Assembly (NCBI GenBank): GCA_016788285.1
Contig: JAEUSW010000140.1
Location: 1-47,206, forward strand
Origin: Flavobacteriales bacterium
GTDB taxonomy: Bacteria > Bacteroidota > Bacteroidia > Flavobacteriales_F > PHOS-HE28
Direction: 5' to 3'
Length of the DNA stretch: 47,206 bases
Shown here: in pieces, positions 36,327 to 47,121 of the stretch
Numbering within the stretch: the first letter of the stretch is position 1
Layout: every line of letters starts with the position of its first letter
Notes under the pieces: generated by a model
What the model saw: the letters and a program-made list of their open reading frames with translations, nothing else
The model's database searches: none
Told to the model about the DNA's origin: nothing
Made by a program: the position numbers and the translations under genes

Positions 36327-36357
36327 TTGTCGTTGAGGCGATGGCGGCTACCTTTTG
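36327..36357 (+). promoter_or_regulatory. promoter of the macroglobulin gene (TTG-N19-TACCTTTTG)
   Basis: TTG (36327-36329) and TACCTTTTG (36349-36357) are separated by 19 bases. The -7 part has one extra T. It lies 17 bases before ATG 36375 and downstream of the alternative start at 36327, which it rules out. Confidence 0.6.
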
Positions 36358-36374
36358 CCGCACATCCCTGCACC

Positions 36375-39300
36375 ATGCTCCGTTCCCGGTCCTGGCCTGC
36401 GGCCCTTACCGTGGCCCTGCTCCTCGCCGCCTGCAGCCGCCCTCCGCTCCCCCGCCCCGACCCGGCCTTCGCCCCGTACATCACGGCCTTCACCGCCGGG
36501 GCAGTGTCGGCCTCCTCCCCGGTGCTCGTGCGGCTGGCGGAGGGCCTCACGCTCACCGACACCAGCGCCGGCAAGCTCGCCACCCTCTTCGAGCTCGAGC
36601 CCGCCGTGGAAGGCACCGTGCGCTGGCAGGATGTCCGCACGATCGCGTTCGTGCCCAACGAGGCGCTCCGGCCGGGTACGGACCATACGGTCACCTTTCA
36701 GCTCGGCGGCATCGTGCAGGTGCCCGGTCAGTTGTCCACCTTCCGCTTCGGGTTCCGGACCCTCGACCAGCACCTTGCCGTGGACCTGGCCGACGTGGCC
36801 CCGCTGGACGGCGAAGGCGGCGATCTGCACAGCATGACCTGGCAGGTGACCACAGCGGATCAGGCGCGGGCGGACCAGCTGGTGGCCTGCTTCAGCGCAC
36901 GGCAGGACGGCCGCGACGTGCCCTTGCGCATCACCAGCTCGCCGGACCGGGTGCGGCATGAGCTCGTGGCCGATAGCGTCCGAAGAGGCCCCGCCGCCAC
37001 GGTGGTGGACCTCATTTGGGACGGGAGCGCGATCGGCAGCGCGGACGAGGGCCGCACCAGCCTGGACCTGCCGGAGACGGGACGCTTCGCGCTGCTCACT
37101 GCCCGGGCCCTGCTCGATGGGGAACAACAGGTGCGCCTGCTCTTTTCCGAGCCGCCGGACCCCGCCCAGGACCTGACCGGCCTGGCCGGCATCTCCGGCG
37201 AACCACCGATGCGCATCGCCGCGGAGGGCAACACGCTGGTCCTTCATCCCGCCGAGCCGCAGCATGGCGAGCAGACCGTGTTCGTGGCCGCGGGCCTCCG
37301 GACAGCGACCGGCACCACCCTCGACCTGGACGTGACCACCCGGGTCCGCTTCCCCGAGCCGGGTCCGGCCGTCCGTTTCGTCGGCGATGGCGTTGTGCTA
37401 CCCACCTCCGGCGGCCGCAAGCTCCCCTTCGAGGCCGTCAACCTCCGCGCCGTGACCGTGCGGATCATCCGGGTGCATGCGGACAACATCCCGCAGTTCC
37501 TGCAGGTGAACGACCTGGCCGGTGGCGAGGAGCTGGCCCGCGTGGGGCGCCTGGTGGCCGAACAGGATGTGCCCCTCATCAGTACGGATGCCCCGGATCC
37601 CGGACGATGGAACCGGTATTTCCTCGACCTCGACAAGCTGATCTCCGCGGAACCCGGTGCCATCCACCGGGTGGAGCTCGGCTTCCGCCAGGACCAATCC
37701 GCATTCCCCTGCGGCGACGGCACCCCGCCCTCCCCCGAAGCGGGGCTGACCGGTCGCACCGAAGCGCCGACGCTGGACGACAGCGCCTTCGACCGTGCGG
37801 GCTACTACTACTACTATGATGAGTCCTGGTATCCGGATGACTATGACCATCGGGAACGGGACAACCCCTGCTCATCCAGCTACTACGGCAGCCGTCGCAA
37901 GACCAGCCGCAACGTGCTCTCCAGCGACCTCGGTCTGCTGGCCAAACGCGACGCGAACGGTGCGCTCCGGGTGGCGGTGAGCGACCTGCGGAGCGGCGCG
38001 GCCATCCCCGGAGCGGAGGTGGATGTGCTCGATCTGCAACTGCGCACCCTGGGCCACCTGACCACCGATGGTCAGGGCTTCGCCGCCTTGCCGGCCCCGG
38101 CGCACACCCCCTTCCTGGTGGTGGCCCGGTCCAAGGAGCAGCGCGGCTACCTGCGCGTGGATGACGGTTCGGCGCTCGACCTCAGCGCGTTCGATGTGGG
38201 CGGTGAGGCCCTTCCGCAGGGCCTGAAGGGCTTCCTCTATGGCGAGCGCGGCGTGTGGCGACCGGGCGACTCCCTTCACCTGGCCTTCATCCTGCACGAC
38301 CGGGACAAGGCCCTGCCCAAGGACCATCCGGTGGTGTTCGAGCTGATGGACCCGAACGGCCGGCTCGTGCACCGCGCCGTGCGCCGACAGGCGGTGGGTG
38401 ACCAGTACGGATTCCCGTGCGCCACCTCACCGGATGCGCCCACCGGCCTCTGGCTGGGGCGGGTGACCGTGGGTGATGCCACCTTCCATCGCTCGCTCCG
38501 CATCGAGACGGTGAAACCCAACCGGATGCGGATCGCGCTCGACCTGGGCTCCGGTCCGCTGCTGGCGGATCAACTTCCGCGGGCCACCCGGCTCGAGGCG
38601 GTCTGGTTGCACGGCGCTCCCGCCGTTCAGGCGCCGGTCGTGATCTCCGTGGGGCTCGCCCGGGCCGAGTTCAAGCCGAAAGGCCACGATGATCTCGTGT
38701 TCGACGACGTCGGCCATCAGCTCAGCGAGGGAGAGACCGTCGTGTTCGAGGGCCGCACCGACGCCCAGGGGCGCGCGCTCTTCCCCTTCGACCTGAAGCC
38801 ATCGGCAGGCGCACCCTCGGCACTGCGGCTCACGGTCGTCAGCCGCGTGAGCGATCCCGGCGGGGATGCCAGCACGGACCAGCAGGAGGTGGTGCTCCAC
38901 CCCTATCGCACCTACGTGGGTCTGCGGGCTCCCTCACCGGACGGGGCTTGGGACACCTACCTGGCCGGACGGCCGCACCGCTTCGAGCTGGTCAGCCTGG
39001 ACGGCGCGGGCAAGCCCGTGCCCGGTCACCCGCTGAAGGTGCAGGTGATGAAGGTGGACGAGGAGCGCTGGTGGCATGGCGCGATGGACGGCCCCACGAG
39101 CGGCCGCACCGGAGAAGGCCTGCGCGTGGTCTCCGCGCATGACGTGGTCACCGACGCCCGGGGCCGCGGTTCCCTGGATGTGCGTGTGGAAGCCGCAGCC
39201 ACTGGACGGTACCTGGTGCGTGCAGAGGATCCCTCCAGCGGCCATGTGGCCGTCGTCACCCTCCACTTCGGAGCGGACGGCGCGGCCGATGCGGCGGGCC

Positions 39301-41948
39301 GAGGCAAGGACCCGGCGGCCACCCGGCTGGCCATCGGCACGGCCAGGGAGCGGTATGCCCCTGGTGACGAGGTGGAGCTGACCATACCGTCCGCGCACAA
39401 GGGCACCGCGATCGTGAGCCTGGAGAACGGCCATCGCGTGTTGGAGATCACGCGCATCGCGCTGAACGAGGGCGGCACCACCCATCGCTTCAAGGCCACT
39501 GCCGCCATGATGCCCAACATCCACGCGCATGTCACCCTGCTGCAACCGCACGGTGAGGTCGCCAACGACCTGCCCATCCGCCTCTACGGCGTGGTCCCCA
39601 TCCTGGTGGAGGACCCGACCACCCGCTTGGAGCCGGTGATCCAAGCGCCGGCCGAGATCAAGCCCGGGCGCGAGTTCACCCTCACGGTGGCGGAGAAGAG
39701 CGGGCGCGCCATGCACTACATGCTCTATGCGGTGGACGAGGGGCTCCTCGACCTGACCCGATACCGGACACCCGACCCGTGGGCTCAGCTCTACGCGCGT
39801 GAAGCGCTCGGCGTGCACAGCTTCGACCTGTACGACCAGGTGATCGGCGCCTTCGGAGTGGAGGCCGGCCGCGTGCTGGCCGTCGGTGGCAGCGATGGTG
39901 GCGGGCCGGTCGATCCCTCCCGCATCGGGCGCTTCAAGCCCGTGGTGCTGCATGCCGGTCCGCTCTCCCTGGCGCCGGGCCAGCGAGGCACCCATCGGTT
40001 CACCATCGACAACTACGTGGGCCGTGTGCGGGTGATGGTGGTGGCCAGCCACCCCGACGGGGCCTATGGCCATGCCGAAAAAGCCGTGCCCGTCCGCCAG
40101 CCGCTCATGGTCCTGGCCACCCTGCCCCGTGTGCTCGGGCCTGACGAGACGGTCGAACTTCCCGTCACCGTGTTCGCCATGGACAAGGCGCCGGGCGAGG
40201 TCACCATCAAGGTCGACCTGTCCGGCGCGGTGATCGGCGAAGGCCCGCTCGAGCACGTGGTCCGCTTCGACCGGACCGGCGAGCACGTGATCCGGTTCCA
40301 GTTGCGCGCCCGGGACCGCACCGGTGCGGCGCAGGTGAACGTGACCGCCCAGGCGGGCACGGAGCGCGCCACCACGCGGATCGACATCGGCGTGCGCTCA
40401 CCCATGCTACCGATCACCCGATCGGAGGATGGGGTGGTGCGCGGGGGCGAACAGGTGGACCTCCCCGTGGCCCCCATCGGCGTCGGTGGCACCAATTCGG
40501 CCGTCATCGAGGTCACCAGCCTGCCTCCTCTGGGCCTTGAGCGACGCCTACAGGAACTGCTGGGCTATCCCCATGGATGCCTCGAACAGACCGTGTCCAA
40601 GGCCTTCCCGCAGCTCTACCTGGACGGCCTGGTGGACCTTTCGCCCTCCCTGAAGGACCAGGTGAACGCCGATGTGGGGGCCGCCATCCGCAAGCTGGCG
40701 TCGTTCCAGCGCGGCGATGGTCGCTTCAGCTACTGGCCGGGCGGGACGCATACGGATGACTGGAGCAGCATCTACGCCGGTCACTTCCTGCTGGAGGCCG
40801 CCCGACTGGGTCATGCCGTGCCCGGGTCCATGCGCACCGGATGGATCGCTTCGCAGCGCAACGCGGCCCGGGCGTGGTCACCGGCCACCGAAGGCCGTTC
40901 GGCGTTCGTGCAGGCCTACCGCCTGTTCGCCCTGGCGCTGGCCGGTGCCGCGGAACCCGCCGCCATGAACCGCCTCCGGTCGCTGCCCGCCCTCGAGCCC
41001 ATGGCCCGGTGGACCCTGGCCGCCGCCTACGCCGAGCTCGGCCGAACGGATGCGGCGAACGCCTTGACCACGGGCATCTCCGCCGGGATCACGGACTACG
41101 CCGAACTGAGCGGCACCTACGGGAGCGCGGTCCGCGATGAGGCCCTCATCGCCCTGACCCTTCTGCGCAGCGGACGCCTTTCCGAGGCCGGTCCCGTGGT
41201 CCTGCGCATCGCGGAGCGCCTCGGCAGCGACCAATGGCTCAGCACACAGAGCACGGCCTTCGCCCTGATGGCCGTGTCCCGCCACACCGCTGCGAACGGG
41301 CAGGGCCAGGGTCTCGACCTGACGGTCGCCATCGACGGCAAGCCCACCACCGTGCGGAGCGCCCGTTCTGCCTGGCGCATGTCCATGGAAGCGCCGGACC
41401 GCCCGCACACCGTGCAGGTGGTCAACAAAGGCACGGGCATGGTCTTCACCCGGATCACACGGCACGGCACGCCCGCCCAAGGGGTGGAGAACGCATCCTC
41501 CAACGGGCTCGCCATCCGGACCAGCTTCACCGGCACCAATGGAAGCACGCTGGACCCCGCGCTGCTCACGCAAGGCACCGATGTGCTCATGAAGGTGGAG
41601 GTGACCCACATGGGCACCGAGCCCCTCTACAGCAACCTGGCGCTCACCCAGGTCCTCCCGTCCGGCTGGGAGGTCCGGAACGCGCGCATGGAGGGTTTGG
41701 AGCATATCCACACGGACAGCCCGTACACATACCAGGATGTGCGCGACGACCGGGTGATGACCTACTTCGACCTGGCGCGCGGTCAGGTGGCCGTGTTCCA
41801 CCTGCGGGTGACCGCGGCGTACACCGGCCGGTACCACTTCCCCGGCGCCCATGTGGAGGCGATGTACGATGCGCGCATCCACGCCCGGACGAAGGGGGGG
41901 CCGGTGCAGGTGATCGCCCCGGGCGCGGAGCCACGGGCAGCCCGGTGA
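36375..41948 (+). CDS. bacterial alpha-2-macroglobulin lipoprotein
   Basis: A 1857-residue protein of the bacterial alpha-2-macroglobulin family (YfhM/ECAM-like). These are periplasmic lipoproteins thought to trap invading proteases through a reactive thioester. The signal peptide ends in lipobox LLAAC (Cys ~20). Many MG-type beta domains fill ~30-1280. A Tyr-rich loop (GYYYYYDESWYPDDYD) is near residue 475. The thioester motif C1402-LEQ in YPHGCLEQTVSKAFPQLYL matches the CLEQ of E. coli ECAM, so the reactive site is intact. An alpha-alpha toroid (~1400-1680) and a C-terminal receptor-like domain follow. The partner pbpC often found beside this gene is not seen. Length is near the upper end for the family. 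Confidence 0.93.
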   Translation: MLRSRSWPAALTVALLLAACSRPPLPRPDPAFAPYITAFTAGAVSASSPVLVRLAEGLTLTDTSAGKLATLFELEPAVEGTVRWQDVRTIAFVPNEALRPGTDHTVTFQLGGIVQVPGQLSTFRFGFRTLDQHLAVDLADVAPLDGEGGDLHSMTWQVTTADQARADQLVACFSARQDGRDVPLRITSSPDRVRHELVADSVRRGPAATVVDLIWDGSAIGSADEGRTSLDLPETGRFALLTARALLDGEQQVRLLFSEPPDPAQDLTGLAGISGEPPMRIAAEGNTLVLHPAEPQHGEQTVFVAAGLRTATGTTLDLDVTTRVRFPEPGPAVRFVGDGVVLPTSGGRKLPFEAVNLRAVTVRIIRVHADNIPQFLQVNDLAGGEELARVGRLVAEQDVPLISTDAPDPGRWNRYFLDLDKLISAEPGAIHRVELGFRQDQSAFPCGDGTPPSPEAGLTGRTEAPTLDDSAFDRAGYYYYYDESWYPDDYDHRERDNPCSSSYYGSRRKTSRNVLSSDLGLLAKRDANGALRVAVSDLRSGAAIPGAEVDVLDLQLRTLGHLTTDGQGFAALPAPAHTPFLVVARSKEQRGYLRVDDGSALDLSAFDVGGEALPQGLKGFLYGERGVWRPGDSLHLAFILHDRDKALPKDHPVVFELMDPNGRLVHRAVRRQAVGDQYGFPCATSPDAPTGLWLGRVTVGDATFHRSLRIETVKPNRMRIALDLGSGPLLADQLPRATRLEAVWLHGAPAVQAPVVISVGLARAEFKPKGHDDLVFDDVGHQLSEGETVVFEGRTDAQGRALFPFDLKPSAGAPSALRLTVVSRVSDPGGDASTDQQEVVLHPYRTYVGLRAPSPDGAWDTYLAGRPHRFELVSLDGAGKPVPGHPLKVQVMKVDEERWWHGAMDGPTSGRTGEGLRVVSAHDVVTDARGRGSLDVRVEAAATGRYLVRAEDPSSGHVAVVTLHFGADGAADAAGRGKDPAATRLAIGTARERYAPGDEVELTIPSAHKGTAIVSLENGHRVLEITRIALNEGGTTHRFKATAAMMPNIHAHVTLLQPHGEVANDLPIRLYGVVPILVEDPTTRLEPVIQAPAEIKPGREFTLTVAEKSGRAMHYMLYAVDEGLLDLTRYRTPDPWAQLYAREALGVHSFDLYDQVIGAFGVEAGRVLAVGGSDGGGPVDPSRIGRFKPVVLHAGPLSLAPGQRGTHRFTIDNYVGRVRVMVVASHPDGAYGHAEKAVPVRQPLMVLATLPRVLGPDETVELPVTVFAMDKAPGEVTIKVDLSGAVIGEGPLEHVVRFDRTGEHVIRFQLRARDRTGAAQVNVTAQAGTERATTRIDIGVRSPMLPITRSEDGVVRGGEQVDLPVAPIGVGGTNSAVIEVTSLPPLGLERRLQELLGYPHGCLEQTVSKAFPQLYLDGLVDLSPSLKDQVNADVGAAIRKLASFQRGDGRFSYWPGGTHTDDWSSIYAGHFLLEAARLGHAVPGSMRTGWIASQRNAARAWSPATEGRSAFVQAYRLFALALAGAAEPAAMNRLRSLPALEPMARWTLAAAYAELGRTDAANALTTGISAGITDYAELSGTYGSAVRDEALIALTLLRSGRLSEAGPVVLRIAERLGSDQWLSTQSTAFALMAVSRHTAANGQGQGLDLTVAIDGKPTTVRSARSAWRMSMEAPDRPHTVQVVNKGTGMVFTRITRHGTPAQGVENASSNGLAIRTSFTGTNGSTLDPALLTQGTDVLMKVEVTHMGTEPLYSNLALTQVLPSGWEVRNARMEGLEHIHTDSPYTYQDVRDDRVMTYFDLARGQVAVFHLRVTAAYTGRYHFPGAHVEAMYDARIHARTKGGPVQVIAPGAEPRAAR

Positions 41949-44055: not shown

Positions 44056-47000
44056 TCACCTCAGCAGGGTGACATGGCCCTGTTCCTTCACTTCGGAGCC
44101 GTCGTTGCCGACCCCGACGAACACCCAGTAGTACGTTCCCTCGGAGACGTTGGAGCTCGGCTTCCAGATCACTTTGTTGGTCGTGGTCTGCGGCACGGCG
44201 TACACCTTGGTGCCCCAACGGTCATAGATGGTCATCTCCACGCTCTTCCACCCGCGCAGATCGGCGTACTCGAACGCGTCGTTGTTGCCGTCACCGTTCG
44301 GGCTGAACACGTTGGGGATGATCACGATGGGGTCCGGAAGCACGATGACGGTATCCTGGTAGAAACCGGTGCAGCCCTGATCGCTCACCCCGTTCAGGGT
44401 GATGATGTAGACGCCCGGGTCGTTGAAGATGTACGTGGGTTCGAACTCGGTGGACGTTCCGGTGGTGTCACCGAAGCTCCAGTTGAACGACACCACGTTG
44501 CCCGATGACGTGTTGTCGAAGAACACCTCCAACGGGGCCACGCCCTCGTTGGGCTGCGGCACGAAGCTCACATCCGCCGGGGGATCCCAGGTCGTCGTCA
44601 CGGTGGCGGTGCCGAAGCAGCCCAGACCTGGGTCACCCACCGTCACGGTGTAGCTCGCCGGGGAGGTCACAGGCACCACATTGGTCACAGCGCCATCCGG
44701 ATCGGAAAGACCCACCGTGGGCGACCAGCTGTAGGTGAGCAGGTCCTCGTTGACCCCCGCGCACACCCGGAAACGCATGTTCGGGCGATCGGCGCTCTCC
44801 CCTTGGTTGAAGAAGGGCGGCGGGATGGTGTCGCACAGGTTGGCGCCATCCGTGAAGTTGTAGATCACCGAGGTGTAGCCCGTATTGGTGGCGAAGGTGG
44901 GCGAGTTCTGGGTGAAGCCGTTCGGGTAGTTGCTGAAGCAGAACTCCACCACCACATTGGAGACGCCATCCCAGTTGAATCCCGGGTTGAGCACGAAGTT
45001 GTTCCAGCCCACCGTGACGGGCACATCCGTGGGCCCGAACACGGGGAACAGCCCGGTGACGAAGCCCTGGTCGATGTTGAGCGAATCGAGGGTGGTGCAG
45101 CCCATGTGGATCTGCCAGTCCGGGTAGAGCGCCAGCCCGTTCACCGCAGCCACGTTCAAGGCCAGCTCATTGATGGTGCCGCCGGTGAAGCCCAGCGCCA
45201 GGAGCTCGCTGGCCCGGATCAGGACCTGGTGCTTGGTGCTGTTGTACCAGTTGCCGAACGGTGCGGGATACGAAGTGGTGGTGCCTTGCACCGTGCCCGT
45301 GCCCAGCTCAAAGTCCGCCACGATGCCCGAGGAACATCCTCCGAAGTTCTGTCCACAATAAATGGGCGGCGAGTTATCGATCTCGACCGTGAACGTGGTT
45401 CCCTGACCCTCGCAGAACGAATCGTCCGCGACCGTGACGGTGAAGTCGGGGACGAAGCCCGGAAGCACCACGAGCGAAAGCGTGGTATCCTGCTTGGTGC
45501 AGCCGTCGGGGCTGGTGATCTCCACGGTGTATTCGTAGCTCCCCGGCTGGCTGTACCCGGCGATGGGGTTGGCGATGTCATCGGCCGACAGACCGAGCGA
45601 GGGGGTCCACTCGAACGTGTAGCCGGGGATGGCCGGGTTCGTGGTCACGTTGATCTGGGCGGTCTCACCCAGGCACAGCGTATCATCGCTCTGCGTGACG
45701 CTGAAGCTGAAGTCGCTCACCACGAAGACCGTGATCGTATCCGAGTTGATGCAGGAGCCGGCCAGGTCGCTGACGACCACATAGGTGGTCGTGCCGTTCG
45801 GATCCGCGATCACCTGCGAGCAGAAGGGCGGGTCGAGGCAGATGAAGTTCTGCGGGGTGATCGGGTCGCCGCCGGGCAGGATGGACCACACGAAGTTGGC
45901 ACCGCCCTCGGCCTCGATGTTCGCCACCTGAGGTCCACAGATGGTCTGGTCAGGACCGACGGATGTCCGTTGAAGCACGTTCGTGTTGAACACGTAGGTC
46001 TGGAACGCACTGATCGGACAGTTCTGGTCCTCCACCGTGATGGTGAAGGGATAGAATCCACTGTTGCCGGGTTGGGCCGTCCAGCAAACGCTCACCGTCA
46101 CCGGGTTGGTGCCGGTCCACGAGATCGTGGAACCGGGAAGGTTCTGCTGGATGTTGCTCTCCACCACCAAGGTGTCGCCGAGGTCCGGGTCGCCGATGAC
46201 CACGTCAAAACAGAAGTTGTCCGACTCGCAGAGCTCGATCTCCGTGCAGCTCACCTGGACGGCGGTGCCGGAGAAGTTCCCGATGCAGTAAGCCGGATCG
46301 GGGGCCTGGTTGGTGCACGGGATCACCACGAACTGCATGTCCCGCATCACCGTGCCGATCACGTTGCCATCCTCATCCCATTGGGTCACCTCCACCACCA
46401 CCACGAAGTTGCCCTGGGCGTTGGGCGTGAAGGTCAGCAGGCCGGTCACCGGATCCAAGGTGATGCCCGTGATCGGTTCGTTCGCCGTGTAGGGGAACAC
46501 ATAGCCGATGGGCACACCACCAAAGTCCAGCGCGGGATGCAGCGCATAGCTCAGGCTGTCCCCATCGGGATCGTAGACCCCGTAGCTGTACAGCACCGGT
46601 TGGTTCAGGCACACGTAAGGGATCGGCGCGCTCGTGAACACCGGCGAGTCCTCACAGGGATAGTCGGCGTTGTTGAACGTGGTCTCGATGTAGCCGTCCA
46701 CGTTGCCGGGCTGCTGGAGGTTCACGATGGCGTCGTTGCGGCAGCACAACGACCAGGAGACCGTCCAGAAATCGCAGGGGGGCACGGTGGCCGTGCCCGT
46801 GAAGATGTACTGCTCCAAGCCGGGCAGAGTGCCGCCGTTGCAGGTGCTGTTCTGCAGCTCGTTCGGGCAGAGCTGGCTCACTTCGGTGAAGCTCTGCTGG
46901 GTGACCGTCACGTTCTGATTGCCGCAGGGGCTCTCCAACGTCAGGTCATACGAGGTGCCCAGTGTGGTCCCGAAACAGTCCCGGTAGATGATCAGAGTGA

Positions 47001-47121
47001 ACGCATATTCGCCGTTCCCCAGGCATTCGTAGATGATCTCACCACCTGATACGTGGGTGGCCTTCGCTTCATGCCAGGAGAGTGTGGCCAAGGCGGCCAG
47101 AGCCAGCAGTTTACGGTGCAT
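44056..47121 (-). CDS. gliding-motility-associated (CHU_C, type B T9SS) secreted protein with Ig/PKD repeats
   Basis: A 1021-residue secreted surface protein. The signal peptide (MHRKLLALAALATLSWHEAKA) is followed by THVSGGEIIYECLG, the standard start of this Bacteroidota family. Ig/PKD-like modules follow, each with a Cys-x-Gly opening and W-(S/T)-P core. The last ~95 residues (IPNVFSPNGDGNNDAFEY, YDRWGTKVY, GTYYWVF) are the type B T9SS C-terminal domain found in gliding-motility-associated proteins such as SprB relatives. Residues ~586-794 (44740-45365) are a separate domain, starting IYCGQNFGGCSSGIVADF, that interrupts one Ig-like module. A PKD module (FDNTSSGNVVSFNWSFGD) precedes the sorting domain. 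Function is probably adhesion. Confidence 0.9.
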   Translation of the reverse strand: MHRKLLALAALATLSWHEAKATHVSGGEIIYECLGNGEYAFTLIIYRDCFGTTLGTSYDLTLESPCGNQNVTVTQQSFTEVSQLCPNELQNSTCNGGTLPGLEQYIFTGTATVPPCDFWTVSWSLCCRNDAIVNLQQPGNVDGYIETTFNNADYPCEDSPVFTSAPIPYVCLNQPVLYSYGVYDPDGDSLSYALHPALDFGGVPIGYVFPYTANEPITGITLDPVTGLLTFTPNAQGNFVVVVEVTQWDEDGNVIGTVMRDMQFVVIPCTNQAPDPAYCIGNFSGTAVQVSCTEIELCESDNFCFDVVIGDPDLGDTLVVESNIQQNLPGSTISWTGTNPVTVSVCWTAQPGNSGFYPFTITVEDQNCPISAFQTYVFNTNVLQRTSVGPDQTICGPQVANIEAEGGANFVWSILPGGDPITPQNFICLDPPFCSQVIADPNGTTTYVVVSDLAGSCINSDTITVFVVSDFSFSVTQSDDTLCLGETAQINVTTNPAIPGYTFEWTPSLGLSADDIANPIAGYSQPGSYEYTVEITSPDGCTKQDTTLSLVVLPGFVPDFTVTVADDSFCEGQGTTFTVEIDNSPPIYCGQNFGGCSSGIVADFELGTGTVQGTTTSYPAPFGNWYNSTKHQVLIRASELLALGFTGGTINELALNVAAVNGLALYPDWQIHMGCTTLDSLNIDQGFVTGLFPVFGPTDVPVTVGWNNFVLNPGFNWDGVSNVVVEFCFSNYPNGFTQNSPTFATNTGYTSVIYNFTDGANLCDTIPPPFFNQGESADRPNMRFRVCAGVNEDLLTYSWSPTVGLSDPDGAVTNVVPVTSPASYTVTVGDPGLGCFGTATVTTTWDPPADVSFVPQPNEGVAPLEVFFDNTSSGNVVSFNWSFGDTTGTSTEFEPTYIFNDPGVYIITLNGVSDQGCTGFYQDTVIVLPDPIVIIPNVFSPNGDGNNDAFEYADLRGWKSVEMTIYDRWGTKVYAVPQTTTNKVIWKPSSNVSEGTYYWVFVGVGNDGSEVKEQGHVTLLR

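Follow-up and report, generated by a model that had tools for sequence, protein, structure and literature searches.

The last immunoglobulin (Ig)-like module of a T9SS type B surface protein was found to be interrupted by a segment of 208 residues. Judging from the sequence and the predicted structure, this segment is most probably an independently folding lectin-like (jelly-roll) domain that was inserted in the B-C loop of the stalk's final Ig module. The window analysed here is the whole stretch of 47,206 nucleotides, and the gene lies on its minus strand at positions 44056-47121. The original prediction had placed a domain of about 205 residues inside an Ig-like repeat of this protein. This proved correct, with 208 residues (587-794; 44740-45363, minus strand) lying between two complementary Ig halves, and all of the motifs that it had quoted were located where it had put them.

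The gene encodes a gliding-type protein of 1021 residues, in which the only matches over the cut-offs were PKD and CHU_C in Pfam and TIGR04131 in NCBIfam; both PF13585 and TIGR04131 identify a T9SS type B sorting domain at the C-terminus. Residues 1-21 resemble a Sec signal peptide by eye. The N-terminal third (residues 22-380; 45982-47058, minus strand, as for all features of this gene) is similar by eye to genus paralogues and has no Pfam name. Two intact Ig modules follow, at residues 386-468 (45718-45966; Ig profile positions 1-72, 58.9 bits) and, directly before the split module, at residues 476-548 (45478-45696; positions 3-68, 54.0 bits). The split module consists of a first half at residues 562-586, including C570-x-G572 (45364-45438; positions 2-20, 4.1 bits), and a second half at residues 795-844, starting from the YSWSP strand (44590-44739; positions 23-70, 23.8 bits), and the insert between them was delimited by motif positions, the Ig profile halves and homologues. 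The protein ends with a PKD_4 domain at residues 858-919 (44365-44550; PF18911, E 2.1e-12) and the CHU_C type IX secretion signal at residues 934-1018 (44068-44322; PF13585, E 5.9e-15, 55.6 bits against a cut-off of 27; TIGR04131, 37.2 bits against a cut-off of 35). No Pfam Ig family matched the Ig modules of this protein, and no Pfam or NCBIfam family matched the insert. Elsewhere in the window, positions 36327-41945 (plus strand) encode a bacterial alpha-2-macroglobulin (bMG3, A2M_BRD, MG2, bMG10 and A2M over the cut-off).

The interruption is visible in the spacing of the Ig motifs. In the preceding module, C483-L-G485 is followed by FEWTPSLGLS at residues 503-512, whereas in the split module the opening DSFCEGQGTTFTVEIDNSPP (567-586) and the core LTYSWSPTVGLSD (795-807) are separated by the 208 residues of the insert. 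Accordingly, the distance from C-x-G to the next [YFV]-x-W is 224 residues in the split module versus 17 in the preceding one, and it is 11-24 (median 13) in the intact modules of related proteins, 154 of 264 of which fit the pattern. An Ig profile trained on 264 modules, none of them with a nested domain, read the window protein as whole, whole, half (2-20), a gap of 214 residues, and half (23-70), with residues 562-580 forming the first half, which is weak by itself, and residues 795-844 the second. The segment is retained at 84-98% identity in five genus-mates; this conservation argues against a chance or assembly effect, which was rejected.

The same arrangement was observed in homologues, which comprised 130 domain hits in 119 ORFs from 162 loci. 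At least 556 stretches encoding a relative were found among GTDB species genomes, and the sample leans towards window-like copies because the best 80 of these were kept. An Ig half (≥18 bits) followed the nested domain in 84 of the 130 hits and started at model position 17-25 in all 84; an Ig half before the domain (≥3 bits, ending by position 27) was detected in 58 of these 84. When the flanks were joined in silico, they beat the second half alone in 58/84 cases (median gain 2.4 bits) and the swapped order in 69/84 (median gain 5.4 bits). In the window-type gene L033, for example, the joined flanks scored 33.3 bits versus 31.8 for the second half alone. The gain from joining the flanks is small. 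By themselves, first halves also score low in other proteins, with 2.2 and 2.3 bits in L053 and L028.

Two AlphaFold2 models were built, one of residues 471-850 from 20 sequences (pLDDT 85.4, pTM 0.72) and one of residues 555-855 from 81 sequences, i.e. the window protein and 80 nested homologues (pLDDT 92.2, pTM 0.81). In the second model, strands of the first Ig half were predicted at model positions 14-16 and 21-27 (residues 568-570 and 575-581), and single solved Ig/PKD domains aligned to both ends of the model (first residue 1-2, last residue 295-300) over 79-89 residues at 2.3-3.4 Å. The Ig-type matches around the insert included 9fls (Z 8.7), 3jz7 (Z 8.2), 1l6z (Z 8.2) and 2yrl (Z 7.7). 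On the first model, two-Ig chains aligned over about positions 1-376 with around 160 residues at high rmsd (5vst, 161 residues, 8.1 Å), as expected for two modules joined at a different angle. The original prediction had proposed structure prediction as a check for a split Ig fold, and the models bear it out by an indirect route: solved Ig domains span the insert, and the insert itself (model 43-235) aligns to other folds. Taken together, the profile halves and the predicted structure place the split at the B-C loop of the Ig module.

The core of the insert (model 43-235, residues 597-789; 44755-45333) is predicted to form a lectin-like beta-sandwich. Its fold matches included the Bxb1 tail tip (Z 10.3), the N-terminal domain of PVA esterase (9kqz, 9kr0, 9kr1; 9kr1 Z 10.1 over 155 residues at 3.2 Å), the Cwp84 lectin-like domain (4ci7, 4d59; 4d59 Z 10.1, 148 residues, 3.4 Å) and the CBM-like domain of PbeAcXE/FjoAcXE (7toh, 7tok; 7toh Z 10.0, 160 residues, 3.5 Å). 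The modelled fold is the same as that of the Cwp84 lectin-like and AcXE CBM-like domains, with Z 9.9-10.1 over 148-160 residues. The Cwp84, AcXE and PVA esterase domains differ from the insert in being enzyme parts that are not nested in Ig modules, they share 3-13% identity with it, and no sequence link to them was found. In the fold search, Z values of 7-8 are typical of models that match nothing clearly, and Z below 8 may reflect only a common arrangement; a Z near 10 on a beta-sandwich shows the fold class, not the function. Such sandwich folds are common, and sharing one reveals no function. The matches to phage tail proteins and to viral models are likewise at fold level only. By sequence, the insert matched nothing in the PDB beyond chance, the best E of the profile search being 0.3. 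In a Pfam scan of 34 members of the insert family, 12 families matched weakly, in at most 2 members each, with a best E of 0.0049. Weak Pfam names (COPI_C, MNNL, Decapeptide and others) were disregarded.

Homologues of the insert were present in 40 of the 58 genomes searched, the window's own included. Across the phylum, the insert profile matched 40/296 Bacteroidota genomes and 26/140 genera. The original prediction had mentioned similar segments in other Bacteroidota surface proteins, and the nested domain is a widespread Bacteroidota module. Of the 130 hits, 128 were classed, partly by hand, and 2 were dropped as too short. Most copies lie in an Ig B-C loop, either with the cysteine collar described below (75/128) or without a full collar (8/128); a further 8/128 sit with a collar in another Ig-like host, 4/128 in an FG-type loop, 1/128 in a PKD domain (L079), 1/128 loose between domains (L077) and 4/128 in other contexts. 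The remaining 27/128, mostly near the protein start, have no Ig half after the domain; these "signal-peptide" rows are a rest class defined by that lack. Seven of them were included in a Pfam scan, in which the domain was followed by PKD and GEVED in 3 (with a sorting tail over the cut-off in 2) and by PKD only, by CARDB and a beta-helix, by Ig and a beta-helix, or by nothing in one each. The segment was expected to occur in other contexts, and it does: behind signal peptides, within a PKD domain and in another type of Ig, where it occupies a different loop; it also stands loose between domains. The alignments indicate a domain family of its own with several kinds of host.

The FG-type hosts bring in a curated Ig model. 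Pfam Ig_7 (PF19081, "Ig-like domain CHU_C associated") has its best stretch in L140 broken off at profile position 65 of 84, and the domain starts nine residues further on. In this match the curated model itself would be seeing the same domain nested, in an FG-type loop rather than in the B-C loop of the window protein. In L136, an Ig_7-like module at residues about 480-690 holds what by eye is a different jelly-roll-like segment at an FG-type site, and the only Pfam match of that segment is a weak one to Ig_7; two sister modules hold the window's domain at that site. A plasmid or phage module was considered and rejected: tblastn of the segment at E 1e-5 gave no match in 72,556 plasmid records and none in 50,697 phage records. 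One IMG/VR contig filed as viral (L163, IMGVR_UViG_3300017917_001283) encodes a type B-like protein of 1737 residues that carries the nested domain; this contig is probably bacterial DNA, as the protein end looks type B-like by eye.

Nested copies share a cysteine collar, with C-G-(about 5)-C before the domain and a further Cys after it. In the window protein, the alignment columns assign the N-side of the collar to C589 ... C596 (45334-45357), the C-side to C787 (44761-44763) and an accompanying cysteine within the domain to C675 (45097-45099). The N-side collar was found in 75/75 Ig-nested collar rows and 1/27 signal-peptide rows, figures to be read with the collar having partly defined the row class. 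Cys in the C675 column occurred in 73/75 collar rows and in 8/8 collar rows of the other Ig-like host, versus 2/8 nested rows without a full collar, 0/27 signal-peptide rows and 0/4 FG-nested rows; C675 goes together with the collar. The C728 and C763 columns hold Cys in 122/128 rows each, and Q632 and W717 are conserved in 128/128. In nested members, the conserved C589, C596 and C787, together with C675 in the core, are placed by alignment and model where the two linkers enter and leave the domain. It is likely that they form two extra disulfides closing the base of the head, a pairing deduced from their co-occurrence.

The B-C loop is occupied by other domains as well, and the original prediction had not seen it as a general insertion site. 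We scanned 728 open frames for split Ig modules, admitting breaks up to position 66 and requiring more than 2 bits for the first half, so that breaks very near the start would be invisible. Results showed 28 split modules beside 435 whole ones; the window's domain accounted for 19 of the split modules and other inserts for 9, and all breaks fell at positions 17-23 of 73. In a second sample of 60 long type B proteins, taken from the TIGR04131 list regardless of the nested domain, there were 94 whole modules, one split module (break at position 21) and no copy of the window's domain. Nesting is uncommon in the phylum at large, given 1 split versus 94 whole modules in a sample not chosen by domain, yet its position is constant (17-23 of 73 in all 29 split modules of both scans) and its content varied.

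Pfam named 8 of the 10 other inserts over the cut-off, namely Reelin_subrepeat-B in 4 (L053, L057, L060, L061), LTD in 2 (L028, L070) and P_proprotein in 2 (L058, L215); the two left without a name are the L072 insert and a second one of L070. The insert of L073 is NIDO-like, under the Pfam cut-off, and those of L072, L100 and L070:7156-7467 have no Pfam name; the last is a segment of about 100 residues (C-Y-T-V ... D-G-W) between two Ig halves. When 20 segments lying, or presumed to lie, between Ig halves were scanned with Pfam, 11 matched PF21471 (Reelin_subrepeat-B; E 3e-33 to 6e-16), 2 PF00932 (LTD) and 2 PF01483 (P_proprotein), and 5 had no match over the cut-off. In genome G057, the second ORF of L070, a neighbouring paralogue, carries a Reelin segment in the corresponding (third) Ig module, and one of its later modules holds a lamin-tail segment. 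The window's own genome encodes three proteins with Reelin subrepeat-B (E 1e-27 to 6e-30) just before an Ig half that starts at model position 12-20, at the same loop: L166 (G000:C116:68760-69194), L167 (G000:C312:26508-26963) and L168 (G000:C312:21796-22239). Their first Ig half scored 7.1 bits in L167 and barely, at 1.2 bits, in L168, and was recognised by eye only in L166. A looser pattern search returned 90 candidate sockets, 58 with the window's domain; among 21 other candidates, several proved to be repeat arrays, GEVED or the end of a domain copy, and the list does not enter any of the counts given here.

The B-C loop is a preferred insertion site in this Ig module family, since related proteins hold unrelated domains there (Reelin subrepeat-B, LTD, P-domain), the Reelin type also within the same genome. 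That related proteins hold quite different domains in one loop suggests a modular mounting of heads on the stalk. Beyond this, type B surface proteins of Bacteroidota may well use the B-C loop of the CHU_C-associated Ig module as a standard socket. Four or more unrelated folded domains (the lectin-like family, Reelin subrepeat-B, LTD and P-domain, perhaps also the NIDO-like and the unnamed "DGW" segments) would be plugged into it, and heads would be exchanged between lineages, and even between paralogues of the same genome, on a constant stalk. The collar of the lectin-like domain would travel with the cassette and let the head dock.

Two other accounts of the arrangement have to be weighed. 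The protein could contain two ordinary consecutive domains, the C-x-G strand being part of the nested domain and the Ig domain starting at the YSWSP strand, an outcome that the original prediction had named as its refutation. The start of the post-domain Ig matches at model position 17-25 is compatible with such a short Ig, as is the low score of the first half by itself. However, the printed copies after signal peptides have no such strand in front (by eye), a C-x-G-like opener is enriched before Ig-followed inserts (loose form 83/84 versus 21/46 of the others; strict form 58/84 versus 4/46), solved Ig domains align across the insert at 2.3-3.4 Å, and unrelated inserts at the same site leave the same two Ig halves. 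Consecutive domains are contradicted by the two Ig halves of the window protein and were rejected as very improbable. The second account accepts the split and derives all B-C-nested copies from one ancient insertion, which would leave the domain not mobile in any useful sense. AU tests were run on a tree of 76 of the 128 rows, leaving out about two thirds of the B-C-collar rows and L003, L029, L069 and L030 (long or odd), and none of three groupings was rejected: all B-C-nested copies as one clade apart from the signal-peptide and FG copies (p 0.47), B-C and FG copies together against signal-peptide copies (p 0.105), and the four FG copies as one clade (p 0.316). With one clade unrejected, it cannot be claimed that this one domain entered the B-C loop several times independently; the case for repeated insertion is built on the unrelated plugs and the FG and PKD hosts instead of the tree. 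Against a single insertion, the domain must have moved again later to reach the PKD host (L079), the place of the loose copy (L077) and the FG-type hosts (L136, L140), and the B-C-collar label changes 9 times on the tree, 5 of them forced by starred branches, though these changes may be losses. We consider a single ancient insertion without later mobility unlikely. In a quick tree of all 128 rows, the collarless nested copies L120, L144 and L160 fell among the signal-peptide copies. No empty-site orthologue was found: with residues 358-586 as the probe, the ten strongest matches within the genus, the window protein included, all carry the domain, and paralogues lacking it (L063-L068, L078) have a different module order by eye. 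The nearest approach to an empty site is the second ORF of L070, in which the Reelin segment takes the place of the domain. No DNA-level sign of recent movement of the nested domain was seen.

The genome contains T9SS genes: two contigs have matches to SprA, and ten matches to the PorP/SprF family exceed the cut-off. No porP/sprF was seen next to the gene, the start of which is 85 bases away from the contig end; downstream, it is followed by an open frame that is trypsin-like, slightly below the Pfam cut-off. For type B substrates, an adjacent cognate porP/sprF gene is common, not universal (PMC12618676). In the proposed mechanism, the CHU_C signal would direct the protein to the T9SS for export to the cell surface, and there it may serve as an adhesin. 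The collar disulfides would staple the base of the nested domain, which would project laterally from the stalk, its two ends close to each other and its distal loops free. In an Ig fold, the B-C and FG loops are found at one pole. As they share this pole, both kinds of insertion would set the head at the stalk joint, pointing outward.

The head may bind a surface polymer or glycan. The "ligand-binding head" of the original prediction is something we infer from the fold shared with carbohydrate-binding modules, and the binding record of the fold relatives is mixed. According to PMC9105624, the CBM-like domain of PbeAcXE supplies residues touching a xylan fragment, without an open CBM1-like pocket, whereas in the Cwp84 lectin-like domain the usual sugar region appears to be absent (PMC4089489). 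The nested domain could instead be a spacer or rigidity element without any binding activity, which fills the B-C loop, is stapled by disulfides and in this way makes the joint of two Ig modules stiffer. Consistent with this, the collar cysteines and C675 are conserved, no catalytic motif was seen by eye in the alignment, the invariant Q632 and W717 could be purely structural, and the closest relatives keep the domain's place before PKD and the C-terminal signal. Unrelated folds in the same loop and the same domain after signal peptides elsewhere fit a displayed module better, and a mere spacer seems to us improbable.

A split Ig domain carrying a head is already known from RTX adhesins. The split Ig-like domains of FrhA and MpIBP carry heads set outward from the stalk (PMC10865825). 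Like these, the window protein is predicted to form one Ig sandwich from two sequence halves around an insert, and by analogy it would work like an RTX adhesin without being one. Unlike FrhA and MpIBP, it is a T9SS type B export substrate (CHU_C) without RTX repeats; none were found in the Pfam scan of the protein, and its C-terminus is the type IX signal. It further differs in its unnamed, different head family, its cysteine collar and the several unrelated heads at one loop. The grappling hook GhpA of Aureispira (9fls, 9flu, 9flw, 9g8b) has the same Ig fold, 9fls aligning over the split Ig with Z 8.7 (79 residues, 2.6 Å), and its chains were not matched by the insert profile at E up to 10. 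In structural comparison, the Ig modules of GhpA count among the best matches to those of the window protein. We found no description of nested domains in T9SS type B Ig modules in the literature searched, which excluded most subscription papers.

Many T9SS surface proteins are annotated by their C-terminal signal only, and linear domain calls miss nested domains, as they did in the window protein. A named head family together with a plug-in site at a fixed position would supply testable adhesin heads throughout Bacteroidota, as well as a natural scaffold that tolerates unrelated domains at one Ig loop.
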